Shown in pieces: positions 34,282 to 37,386 of a DNA stretch of 64,000 nucleotides. Numbering within the stretch: position 1 is the first letter of the stretch; every line of letters starts with the position of its first letter. The position numbers were made by a program, and so were the translations under genes. The stretch is from a virus. The stretch covers positions 24,152-88,151 of IMG/VR virus record IMGVR_UViG_3300035703_000049; one strand, written 5' to 3'. The notes under the pieces were generated by a model. The model ran no database searches. It was given only the letters and a program-made list of their open reading frames with translations, and was not told where the DNA came from.

Positions 34282-34908
34282 ATGCTATTAACTAATCAAA
34301 TATCTAAAAAAACATTATCAATGTTAGAAATGTGGTTAAGTAAACAACCATATTTTGAAAAACTAGCGCCTGATGGACAGATTTTTTACAAGTACAAACA
34401 CTTAGATTATCATATTGCTAATAGCATACCTAACCAACTATTAAAACCTATAATTGATAGTATTTTACCAAATGCCAATGTACAAACATATAATTATGTA
34501 GAATCTTATATACCATTTGATTTGCATGTTGATACTATAAAAGAATCTATTAATAGAAATGAGTACGCATTTGATAATGCTTCATCTATTACATACAACA
34601 GTGCTGTATTAATTCCTTTAGATGAAGGAGAAAATTTAAGAACTGTGATATTTGATGTTAAGTGTGATGAATGGAAACCAGGTATGAGTGCAAATTACAT
34701 CACTGATATTGATAATGGATTACGTGAAGATGATTTTTCACATGTAAATGAGTTAGATCGACCAAACATTAAGTACTTACCATTGCTTGAAGATAACCAA
34801 TGGAAACGTGGTGACGTTATTACTTGGGACAGAAAATATCTACATTTGGCATGTAATTTTAGAAAACATGTTCCATTTAAAAGAGCATTAACTTTATTCT
34901 TTCATTAG
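34282..34908 (+). CDS. 2-oxoglutarate/Fe(II) oxygenase-like protein
   Basis: 208 residues with the double-stranded beta-helix iron triad: HxD at His82/Asp84 (PFDLHVD) and a distal His near 188 (WDRKYLHLACNF), followed after about a dozen residues by an Arg (FKRALTLFF) that would bind 2-oxoglutarate. Spacing of about 105 residues between HxD and the distal His is plausible for the family. Such enzymes hydroxylate or desaturate peptides, sugars or small molecules; they are frequent in marine T4-like phages. It leads directly into two aminotransferase-fold genes, hinting at a shared small-molecule or peptide pathway. No ribosome site clearer than GGTTG is seen. Confidence 0.68.
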   Translation: MLLTNQISKKTLSMLEMWLSKQPYFEKLAPDGQIFYKYKHLDYHIANSIPNQLLKPIIDSILPNANVQTYNYVESYIPFDLHVDTIKESINRNEYAFDNASSITYNSAVLIPLDEGENLRTVIFDVKCDEWKPGMSANYITDIDNGLREDDFSHVNELDRPNIKYLPLLEDNQWKRGDVITWDRKYLHLACNFRKHVPFKRALTLFFH

Positions 34909-34909
34909 C

Positions 34910-35899
34910 ATGAATAACGGAAAATTATTTTCTTACTTGTACGGTGTAAGTAAGAATGCAAACTTTTTTGCAGCTAAAAACTCAGCTTTAAACTTGTATC
35001 AAGGATCTCGTAGTATACGTGATCCCGAAGTGTTGGATTGTTTGAACAGAATCTTTAATACCAACTACCATGACAATTGGCACATGCAAAAAACGTTTGT
35101 GAATGAATTTGCAAGTTGGCAAAAGTTAGATCTTTCAAAATACGATGTAGATTATAGTGCAGGTACTACGCAAAGTTTTGATAGCTTTTATTTTAGACAC
35201 AGACACAAACGTTTTAGATGTTATGTTGGTGAATACTTCTATCATATCAAAGCATGGATATCAAACAATGTAAATTGGAGTTTTGTTAGTGACGATAATC
35301 CATTACAACAAGGTGATGCTTTAGTACTAAGTTATCCTTTCTGTGATAGTGGCAATTTTTATGAAATTAAATCAATACTTGAAGAATGTGATAGACTAAA
35401 CATACCAGTACTAATTGATATGGCTTACTACAATTTAACTAGCGCGTTACCAATAGAGTTTGAAAACAAATGCATCGATACTGTTTGTTTTAGTTTAAGC
35501 AAAACATTTCCTGTTGCTAATTATAGAATTGGTGTGCGTTATACACAAAAGCATATACAGGATGGGCAAAAATTACATGATCAAATTAACTACAACAATT
35601 ATGCAAGCTGTTATATAGGTTACAAACTTATATCTAAATTTTCAAAAGATTTTATTGCAAACAAGTATAGATCTAAACAAGTTGAAGTATGTAACTTATT
35701 TGATATTAACACAAGCAATAGCGTAATTTTTGCTATAGGCGATAGTGATTGGGATTGCTACAGTAGGAAAACACTATTAGATCAATATCAACTATCGTTT
35801 GATAGCAAGCTTTTTAAAAATAGAATTTGTCTTAATAGCGTTTATGAAAACTGGGATTTATTTATGGAGTTAAAGAATGAAGTTACAACTACATTTTAA
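34910..35899 (+). CDS. PLP fold-type I aminotransferase-like protein, copy A
   Basis: 329 residues. It has the class I aminotransferase fingerprint: Asp170-x2-Tyr173 (VLIDMAYYN), the Schiff-base lysine Lys198 in SLSKTFPVANYRIG, and Arg206-x-Gly exactly eight residues on, as in aspartate aminotransferase (Lys258/Arg266). SAGTTQSF near 83-90 would be the phosphate-binding turn. A basic aromatic stretch HRHKRFRCYVGEYFYH (97-112) is shared with copy B at 36337. It is shorter than normal enzymes (about 390-400), lacking N- and C-terminal small-domain parts. One base separates it from the oxygenase. Substrate unknown; amino-sugar or amino-acid transfer are both possible. Confidence 0.6.
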   Translation: MNNGKLFSYLYGVSKNANFFAAKNSALNLYQGSRSIRDPEVLDCLNRIFNTNYHDNWHMQKTFVNEFASWQKLDLSKYDVDYSAGTTQSFDSFYFRHRHKRFRCYVGEYFYHIKAWISNNVNWSFVSDDNPLQQGDALVLSYPFCDSGNFYEIKSILEECDRLNIPVLIDMAYYNLTSALPIEFENKCIDTVCFSLSKTFPVANYRIGVRYTQKHIQDGQKLHDQINYNNYASCYIGYKLISKFSKDFIANKYRSKQVEVCNLFDINTSNSVIFAIGDSDWDCYSRKTLLDQYQLSFDSKLFKNRICLNSVYENWDLFMELKNEVTTTF

Positions 35900-36344
35900 A
35901 AACATTATTGATAACCCATGCTGTAAGATTATCGTAAACAATGTAGAGCTATACGCTGGTGTTGTACACCCAAGCTATTCGTTTGTATATGAAGACGAAC
36001 ACAATACCGTACATCTAAAGATCGTGCATTATGATAAGAAAAATTCAGAAACAATAGTTGATTCAAATGGTAAAATTATTAGAGACCGTAGTTTTGAAAT
36101 AGAAAAAATAATTGTAGATGATTATGATTTTGAAAATTTAATTTGGAAAAGTTTTTTTCAATCAACTAATAATAACGTTTATGAAAGTTGTTTGTTTTTT
36201 GGACCTAATGGTTCATTTAATATAAATTTTTACTTACCAGTTTTGGAATGGATATTAGAAAACACTAACAACGATGAATCATGGCGCGAGGATTATGAAT
36301 ACTATAAACGTGCTATGAAAATTTTAGGGATACCGTGTGCTTAA
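35877..36344 (+). CDS. Unrecognised 155-residue protein between the two aminotransferase-like genes
   Basis: Starts inside the end of copy A (ATG at 35877 with GGAG about eight bases upstream) and its stop overlaps the GTG start of copy B. The N-terminal 90 residues look like a beta-sandwich (KIIVNNVELYAGVVHPSYSF, NTVHLKIVHYDKKNSE, GKIIRDRSFEIEKIIVDDYD), the rest is helical and aromatic (DFENLIWKSFFQS, WREDYEYYKRAMKI). I recall similar FEIEKIxVDD proteins in marine phages without a known function. Tight overlap on both sides means it is made together with its neighbours and may be a partner subunit or a binding protein for their product. Confidence 0.6.
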   Translation: MKLQLHFKNIIDNPCCKIIVNNVELYAGVVHPSYSFVYEDEHNTVHLKIVHYDKKNSETIVDSNGKIIRDRSFEIEKIIVDDYDFENLIWKSFFQSTNNNVYESCLFFGPNGSFNINFYLPVLEWILENTNNDESWREDYEYYKRAMKILGIPCA

Positions 36345-37386
36345 CGTTGATCTAATTAGAGAAATTTCATGGGTGCTTAGTGTAGCAAGTCAGCAAAATA
36401 TGCTAGATGTATCTGGTGAATACATCTGGGCATATCCTAAGAACAAGTCGCTTGATGAATTAAAAGTGCGTAGTTGCACTATCTTTAGCAGTGGCAACGC
36501 TATAAAAGATGTTGAGGTTAACAGCTTTGTACAACAATCAAACATAGCTACTCATTTAAAAGATCCATGGATCGTAAAGAAATTTGAGGAACGATTCTTC
36601 AATTGGGTAAAAGAGAATCCAAATCATAAGATAAAAAATTTAGATCTTTTTAAGTATACAGCTTTCGCAGCAGGTTCACAGGAAACATTTTCTAACTTCT
36701 ACTTAAGTAATCGAAACAAACGATTTAGAGTTTTCAAAGGTGAATATTGGTGGCATATGGATGTATGGTCAAGCTTAGGGTTAAGCTGGGCATACATTGA
36801 AGATGATGAAATTAGACCAAACGATACTGTAATTTGCAGTTATCCATTTGCATTGTTTGGTCGTAAGCATCCTCAGTTTGATTGGTTATTAGATGAAGTA
36901 AAAGCAAAAAATTGCAAGCTGTTACTGGACTTTATCTATCTACCTAACACATGCAATGAAGTTGAAGTAGACTTACAACATGAATGTATTGATGAAATTA
37001 GTTTTAGCTTTTCCAAAACGTTCCCAGTTCAATGCGCTAAGATAGCAGTTCGAATGTTAAAAAATAAACCCGTTGACATGATGCAAATAAGTAACGACGA
37101 AAACATATGCAATCGCTTAAGTGCAGGGCTAGGATTGGATATTATGAACAACTTCCCTATGAACTATATGTATGAAAAGTACAAAGACAAGCAGCAATTT
37201 TGGTGCAGTAAACTAGGATTAACTCCAAGCCCAGTAGTCCATTTTGGAACAGGAGATGATTATACTGCTTATGGAAAGCAACATTCTGCTCGTTGGTTCA
37301 GTGAATTCAATAATCAACAGGGAAGATACAATTTAGGTATGTTATATGAAAATGAAAATTTACTTTACAACCTAAACTATATATAG
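36337..37386 (+). CDS. PLP fold-type I aminotransferase-like protein, copy B (altered Arg)
   Basis: 349 residues, GTG start at 36337 with TTAGGGA about seven bases upstream. Paralogue of the 34910 gene: it shares AAGSQETFSNFYLSNRNKRF (about 111-130), FKGEYWWHMDVW, Asp198-x2-Tyr201 (LLLDFIYLP) and Lys227 in FSFSKTFPVQCAKIAV. The Arg-x-Gly that binds the PLP phosphate in aspartate aminotransferase is Lys235-x-Ala here, so catalysis may be changed or lost, or the pair may work as a heterodimer with shared active sites as in many fold-type I enzymes. Both copies keep the lysine. Last tightly packed gene of the cluster. Confidence 0.6.
   Translation: MLNVDLIREISWVLSVASQQNMLDVSGEYIWAYPKNKSLDELKVRSCTIFSSGNAIKDVEVNSFVQQSNIATHLKDPWIVKKFEERFFNWVKENPNHKIKNLDLFKYTAFAAGSQETFSNFYLSNRNKRFRVFKGEYWWHMDVWSSLGLSWAYIEDDEIRPNDTVICSYPFALFGRKHPQFDWLLDEVKAKNCKLLLDFIYLPNTCNEVEVDLQHECIDEISFSFSKTFPVQCAKIAVRMLKNKPVDMMQISNDENICNRLSAGLGLDIMNNFPMNYMYEKYKDKQQFWCSKLGLTPSPVVHFGTGDDYTAYGKQHSARWFSEFNNQQGRYNLGMLYENENLLYNLNYI

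Follow-up and report, generated by a model that had tools for sequence, protein, structure and literature searches.

A conserved three-gene phage cassette pairing two predicted PLP-enzyme paralogues with a CBM60-like protein

Introduction

Why should a phage keep two fixed, differently specialised pyridoxal phosphate (PLP) enzyme paralogues on either side of a protein with a sugar-binding fold? The question is posed by a gene cluster in a 64,000-nucleotide stretch of viral DNA (hereafter the window), which is part of the 88 kb virus record IMGVR_UViG_3300035703_000049. A sequence-only reading of this stretch had described four genes as one set, and all four open reading frames (ORFs) are present:

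34282..34908, plus strand: OX, 2-oxoglutarate (2OG)-Fe(II) oxygenase-like protein, 208 aa (HVD at 82-84, H188)
34910..35899, plus strand: AT1, predicted fold-type-I PLP enzyme (class I/II aminotransferase-like), 329 aa (PF00155, E 6e-6; K198, D170, Y173, R206, R305)
35877..36344, plus strand: U155, 155 aa, predicted CBM60-like beta-sandwich (about residues 1-120) followed by C-terminal helices, from an AlphaFold2 (AF2) model
36337..37386, plus strand: AT2, paralogue of AT1 and predicted fold-type-I PLP enzyme, 349 aa, GTG start (homology to AT1; AF2 model)

Here, we report that three of these genes, AT1-U155-AT2, form a conserved, previously undescribed phage enzyme cassette, the parts of which are directly expressible and assayable.

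Results

Viral contigs were searched with AT2 and then with an alignment of AT1 and AT2, yielding 38 related loci; these were recovered through motifs common to the two proteins, and more divergent arrangements may be missed. AT1, U155 and AT2 are all present, in the same order, in 37 of the 38, the exception (L044) carrying one divergent aminotransferase-family (AT) gene only. Several loci are near-duplicates, and 28 representatives, the window included, were aligned. In the window AT1 and U155 overlap by 23 nt and U155 and AT2 by 8 nt, and both junctions overlap in 28/28 representatives. The earlier description of four tightly overlapping genes thus holds within the trio, whereas OX and AT1 abut with a 1 nt gap and no overlap. 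Furthermore, OX lies beside the trio in 0/38 loci, and a search of 21 related records did not find it, so that the search of other phages gave a three-gene cassette in place of the four-gene set. The conserved unit is therefore three genes and OX is not a core member; a four-gene unit was rejected, and a recurrent association with oxygenases was retained. In the deposited phage collection no AT1-U155-AT2 trio was found among 50,697 records, searches with AT2, U155, OX and three U155 relatives gave no matches, and the sole relative found with AT1 belongs to Pelagibacter phage Mosig EXVC030M, congruent with the earlier impression that this is not a known phage module.

The ratio of nonsynonymous to synonymous substitution rates (dN/dS) is 0.05-0.28 within close pairs, and the ORFs are thus not chance but under purifying selection. 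Pairwise distances among the three cassette genes correlate at 0.92 (AT1/U155), 0.79 and 0.80, or at 0.80-0.90 once gp46, which flanks the cassette, is removed. The backbone genes gp46, gp47 and c3 likewise correlate mutually (0.73-0.83), whereas cassette distances follow those of gp46 at 0.40-0.52, of c3 at 0.32-0.40 and, over fewer loci, of gp47 at 0.58-0.69. Considering the strong correlation within the cassette and the weaker one with the backbone, the three genes mostly move together, separately from their flanks. A natural recombinant is found in L015 (985-3504), where AT1 and most of U155 resemble those of L020 and L023 while AT2 resembles that of L033. The breakpoint falls near the 3' end of U155; AT1 and the U155 sandwich thus move jointly.

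AT1 and AT2 are 29% identical (E 1e-40), bearing out the paralogy that had been proposed, and the fold-type-I core appears in both, by sequence for AT1 and by model for AT2. AT1 passes the PF00155 cut-off, and the family is matched by 24 of the 28 representatives. AT2 matched no Pfam family by sequence; structural matches of its AF2 model (pLDDT 78) are exclusively fold-type-I PLP enzymes, and in a fold search of the PDB 998/998 chains had a Z score of at least 8 (top 18.4, root-mean-square deviation (rmsd) 4.1 over 299). The Asp/Tyr/Lys/Arg fingerprint ascribed to AT1 was recovered as D170/Y173, the Schiff-base K198 and R206, eight positions after that lysine (K+8), with D198/Y201, K227 and K235 as the AT2 counterparts, the last where AT1 has Arg. 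The Schiff-base Lys, Asp and Tyr are invariant within the alignment of each paralogue. An invariant Arg in each (AT1 R305, AT2 R330) moreover motif-aligns with the alpha-carboxylate Arg of HisC/AAT, to which, from established knowledge of HisC, we take it to be equivalent.

The K+8 position is Arg in each of the 36 cassette AT1 copies that were read (from the motif in 33, from the invariant R206 column in L018, L026 and L031; L030 and L032 were not read separately), Lys in 38/38 AT2 copies, and Pro in the lone AT of L044. The replacement of the phosphate Arg by Lys, noticed earlier in the single AT2 copy of the window, is thus an old specialisation, fixed across all copies; Lys at the AT2 phosphate site may stand in for Arg. 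AT2 as a decaying pseudoenzyme was rejected, given the fixed Lys together with the low dN/dS, and AT2 is in fact the slower-evolving, more conserved copy of the pair. In a phylogenetic tree the AT2 clade is well supported (98/98) and separate from AT1, indicating that the duplication appears to predate the sampled cassettes. The AT1 side, which includes L044 and the bacterial homologue L049, is weaker (90/65), and the placements of L044, L049 and Mosig are uncertain, being on long branches.

Compared with class I/II aminotransferases of fold type I (PF00155; HisC, CobD, PatB/C-S lyases, Plu4/RohP/MppP), the pair shares the fold, the Schiff-base Lys, Asp/Tyr and the carboxylate Arg, and AT1 also the phosphate Arg. 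On the other hand, the constant two-paralogue pairing and the Arg/Lys specialisation set it apart, and it lacks a close characterised member: sequence searches of the PDB gave no significant closer characterised relative, the best profile match among solved structures being histidinol-phosphate aminotransferase (E 0.05).

For U155, a beta-sandwich had been proposed from the sequence, and the AF2 model agrees, with a confident sandwich at pLDDT 92. Its strong structural neighbours are CBM60 modules only (2xhh, Z 10.3, rmsd 3.1 over 106; 2xfd, Z 10.2, 2.7 over 100), the next fold following at Z 5.9. Other folds, namely lipase/lipoxygenase PLAT-type and C2, were set aside at far lower scores, a weak match of this kind not excluding kinship. 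PF16841 is matched by one of 28 U155 relatives, weakly (E 0.0076), and by U155 itself not at all, for which reason we name the protein CBM60-like rather than file it under CBM60. It is similar in fold to the calcium-dependent carbohydrate-binding modules CBM60/CBM36 (PF16841), the best alignment covering 106 residues, but differs in being encoded by a stand-alone gene instead of being enzyme-appended, in its C-terminal helices and in an identity of only 8-9%. Invariant residues are mostly structural-looking (P14, W90, CLFFG, W125). In the BFVD, its sole good matches are uncharacterised proteins from uncultured phages.

U155 relatives also occur away from the cassette, with up to four copies per record. 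Directly adjoining 7 of about 10 such non-cassette lineages is a gene of the radical S-adenosylmethionine (radical-SAM) family, against a rough expectation of 17% (binomial about 3e-4); since the number of lineages and the expected share are themselves estimates, this value is to be taken loosely. Radical-SAM genes occur in 17 of 19 records searched, and the radical-SAM enzyme of L031 matches PF13186 (SPASM-type). In the record of the window, outside the window itself (G000:C1:8150-15973, L064), six radical-SAM-family matches form a cluster, and two of these enzymes have a U155-like gene between them. The maximum, 17 in the 354 kb contig G001, is seemingly an unusually large number for a phage. 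Other cargo in these phages, assigned by eye, includes Rieske-oxygenase-, acyl-ligase- and amidinotransferase-like genes (L024:1-3791; L012:2274-3413; L068:1883-3867), of which the L012 gene had no Pfam match.

The 2OG-Fe(II) oxygenase-like nature proposed for OX stands as far as its motif goes, with HxD at 82-84 (H82-V-D84) and a distal His188 fitting the facial triad, while no Pfam family was matched above cut-off. L041 and L042 each carry a distant relative of OX 4-5 kb upstream of the trio, that of L041 with a weak PF05118 match (0.04). Oxygenase-like genes moreover adjoin AT-family genes in other settings, directly in L049 and L077 and one gene away in Mosig, and OX is 26% identical over 81 aa (E 1e-5) to the one beside the L049 homologue. 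On account of this adjacency OX plausibly works with the cassette, without belonging to its core.

Several of these settings contain sugar-related genes. A nucleotide-sugar epimerase gene is present in L023. L077 lies on a contig (alphaproteobacterial assembly G312) that seems to be of phage origin, judging by genes such as MazG and ClpP. There, an AT homologue precedes 2OG-oxygenase-like (weak PF05118), glycosyltransferase-like (no Pfam match, assigned by eye), epimerase-like and UDP-glucose-dehydrogenase-family genes, a probable phage operon with sugar-nucleotide genes. This fuller glycan gene set was seen only with a single-copy AT homologue. A scan of bacterial genomes with alignment A4 found a single clear relative, L049, which comes from the single-cell genome of a marine alphaproteobacterium, and five short matches elsewhere that resemble generic aminotransferases. 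The L049 homologue overlaps the oxygenase-like gene and has methyltransferase-, acyltransferase-, SGNH- and glycosyltransferase-like neighbours (by eye from the sequence), a run that looks like a bacterial surface-polysaccharide or glycan cluster. Another distant bacterial AT-family homologue, L079 (5665-6771, minus strand), sits in an apparent NAD-biosynthesis cluster.

The Mosig aminotransferase (QOI69043.1; 27%, E 5e-11) is likewise a distant homologue in a cargo region, with Asp_Arg_Hydrox 2OG genes and near tail-fibre genes; it differs in being a single 262-aa copy, with no AT2 or U155 found. No paper naming Mosig EXVC030M together with aminotransferase was found among those searched. A further likeness is to jumbo cyanophage clusters of sugar- and amino-acid-modifying genes, in which epimerases and 2OG hydroxylases are carried as cargo with a proposed role in capsular-polysaccharide decoration or a secondary metabolite (PMC7824862, section 3.4.10); that paper never uses the words aminotransferase, PLP or carbohydrate-binding. 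The cassette would be a variant on such known phage glycan or secondary-metabolism cargo.

Its usual position is directly 3' of gp46, with a small endonuclease-like gene next, and the gp46/SbcC-like gene occupies the same left-flank position in most loci. The upstream genes in the window are:

31332..33119, plus strand: gp46/SbcC-like recombination subunit (phrog_77, 1e-100), the fixed left flank of the cassette site
33116..34078, plus strand: EPI, NAD-dependent nucleotide-sugar epimerase/dehydratase, upstream context (PF01370, 1.5e-44; phrog_540 nucleotide-sugar epimerase, 4.8e-76)
34071..34265, plus strand: small Hc1-like (histone H1-like) gene between EPI and OX (PF07432, 9.8e-11)

Hc1-like genes recur at the cassette site in L025, L027 and L044, and the gene is probably a resident of the insertion site, outside the module. 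A second nucleotide-sugar epimerase gene lies further upstream, at 28559-29368. The record carries T4-like genes for the major head protein, portal, late sigma factor and gp46/SbcC-like protein. The closest deposited phages by gp46 are jumbo phages of 285-490 kb, with 50% identity to PA5oct-type Pseudomonas phages and 46-48% to Phosso and Atu_ph07. Since gp46 is jumbo-phage-like and G001 carries one relative of the cassette locus, the window record probably represents part of a large phage genome. The carriers of the cassette are uncultured and probably giant T4-like phages. Elsewhere in the window, positions 1232-15556 on the minus strand hold one ORF of 4,774 aa.

Discussion

What, then, might the cassette do? 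Taken together, the epimerase, L077, L049, Mosig and cyanophage contexts speak best for a PLP module that modifies glycans or a metabolite, and we tentatively favour, while holding it somewhat short of probable, one that makes or modifies an amino-bearing residue for glycans of the surface or virion, or else a metabolite. The earlier suggestion that an unusual amino acid or amino sugar is made or modified fits these contexts. In such a scheme AT1-U155-AT2 would be a mobile three-gene biosynthetic cassette, in which AT1 and AT2, presumably by transaminase chemistry, probably act jointly, as a heterodimer in contact or in consecutive steps, on an alpha-carboxylate substrate such as an amino or keto acid or a sugar acid. 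U155, with its predicted CBM60 fold, would contact and partner AT1 as a glycan-recognising or scaffolding subunit. With the nucleotide-sugar epimerase and the putative 2OG oxygenase lying with the cassette in the window phage, the output would most likely be an unusual amino- or hydroxy-modified residue put on a glycan, either the host surface polysaccharide or the virion. If so, this would be a new phage route to remodel host surfaces or the phage's own virions.

Several observations weigh against this proposal. The invariant Arg points to amino acids as substrates rather than nucleotide sugars, whose usual aminotransferases fall in another subgroup (DegT/DnrJ). The predicted CBM60 fold is by itself no proof of sugar binding, and U155 relatives are found next to radical-SAM genes more frequently than next to sugar genes, which is also compatible with peptide or protein modification. 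In many trio loci no sugar gene was found within the DNA fetched, which is weak evidence as the records are fragments. Finally, the L079 homologue lies in the NAD-biosynthesis-like cluster.

The radical-SAM neighbours lend themselves to a broader view, possible if doubtful, in which interchangeable enzymes (paired PLP enzymes, radical-SAM enzymes of the B12 and SPASM types, perhaps also amidinotransferases) work with small CBM60-fold proteins as their dedicated partners or acceptors, AT1-U155-AT2 being the most conserved unit. This would represent a new phage biosynthetic logic joining PLP and radical-SAM chemistry. Alternatively, U155-like proteins would be dedicated protein substrates or carriers, modified or built upon by the PLP pair, and elsewhere by radical-SAM enzymes or amidinotransferases, in a maturation of the type seen for ribosomally synthesised and post-translationally modified peptides. 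We regard this as unlikely: the recurrence of U155-like genes beside enzyme genes, the SPASM-type cargo, a class known for peptide modification, and the matched pace of AT1 and U155 are all congruent with it, but no obvious invariant modifiable core peptide is seen among the mostly structural-looking invariant residues, the CBM60 similarity gives a simpler role, and radical-SAM genes are so common in these phages that the adjacency expectation is uncertain.

A shade more doubtful is that AT1 and AT2 are auxiliary metabolic genes, raising, in infected hosts, the metabolism of amino acids, vitamins or cofactors. The class I/II fold with its alpha-carboxylate Arg, the histidinol-phosphate aminotransferase profile match and the setting of L079 would all suit such a role; however, close kinship to characterised metabolic aminotransferases is lacking, a pair that is fixed, specialised and constantly linked to a CBM60-like protein is unlike a copied host gene, and the one clear bacterial relative lies in the surface-glycan-like cluster.

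DNA hypermodification, with the PLP enzymes helping to build a modified base, is improbable. Some phage pathways of thymidine hypermodification employ PLP and radical-SAM enzymes, the cassette site adjoins gp46/gp47, and a thymidylate-synthase-family gene lies in the same record (G000:C1:1667-2506). Such genes are, however, common in T4-like phages and were present in only 2 of 7 records (fragments), no other base-modification gene was identified, although no search was aimed at them, and the reading is at odds with the CBM60 fold and with epimerase and glycosyltransferase-like genes as neighbours. Equally improbable is that AT1 or AT2 serves as a non-enzymatic PLP-fold regulator or structural partner, for although AT2 lacks the phosphate Arg and is the more conserved copy, neither protein varies at the Schiff-base Lys, the Asp, the Tyr or the carboxylate Arg, and Lys could replace Arg at a phosphate site.

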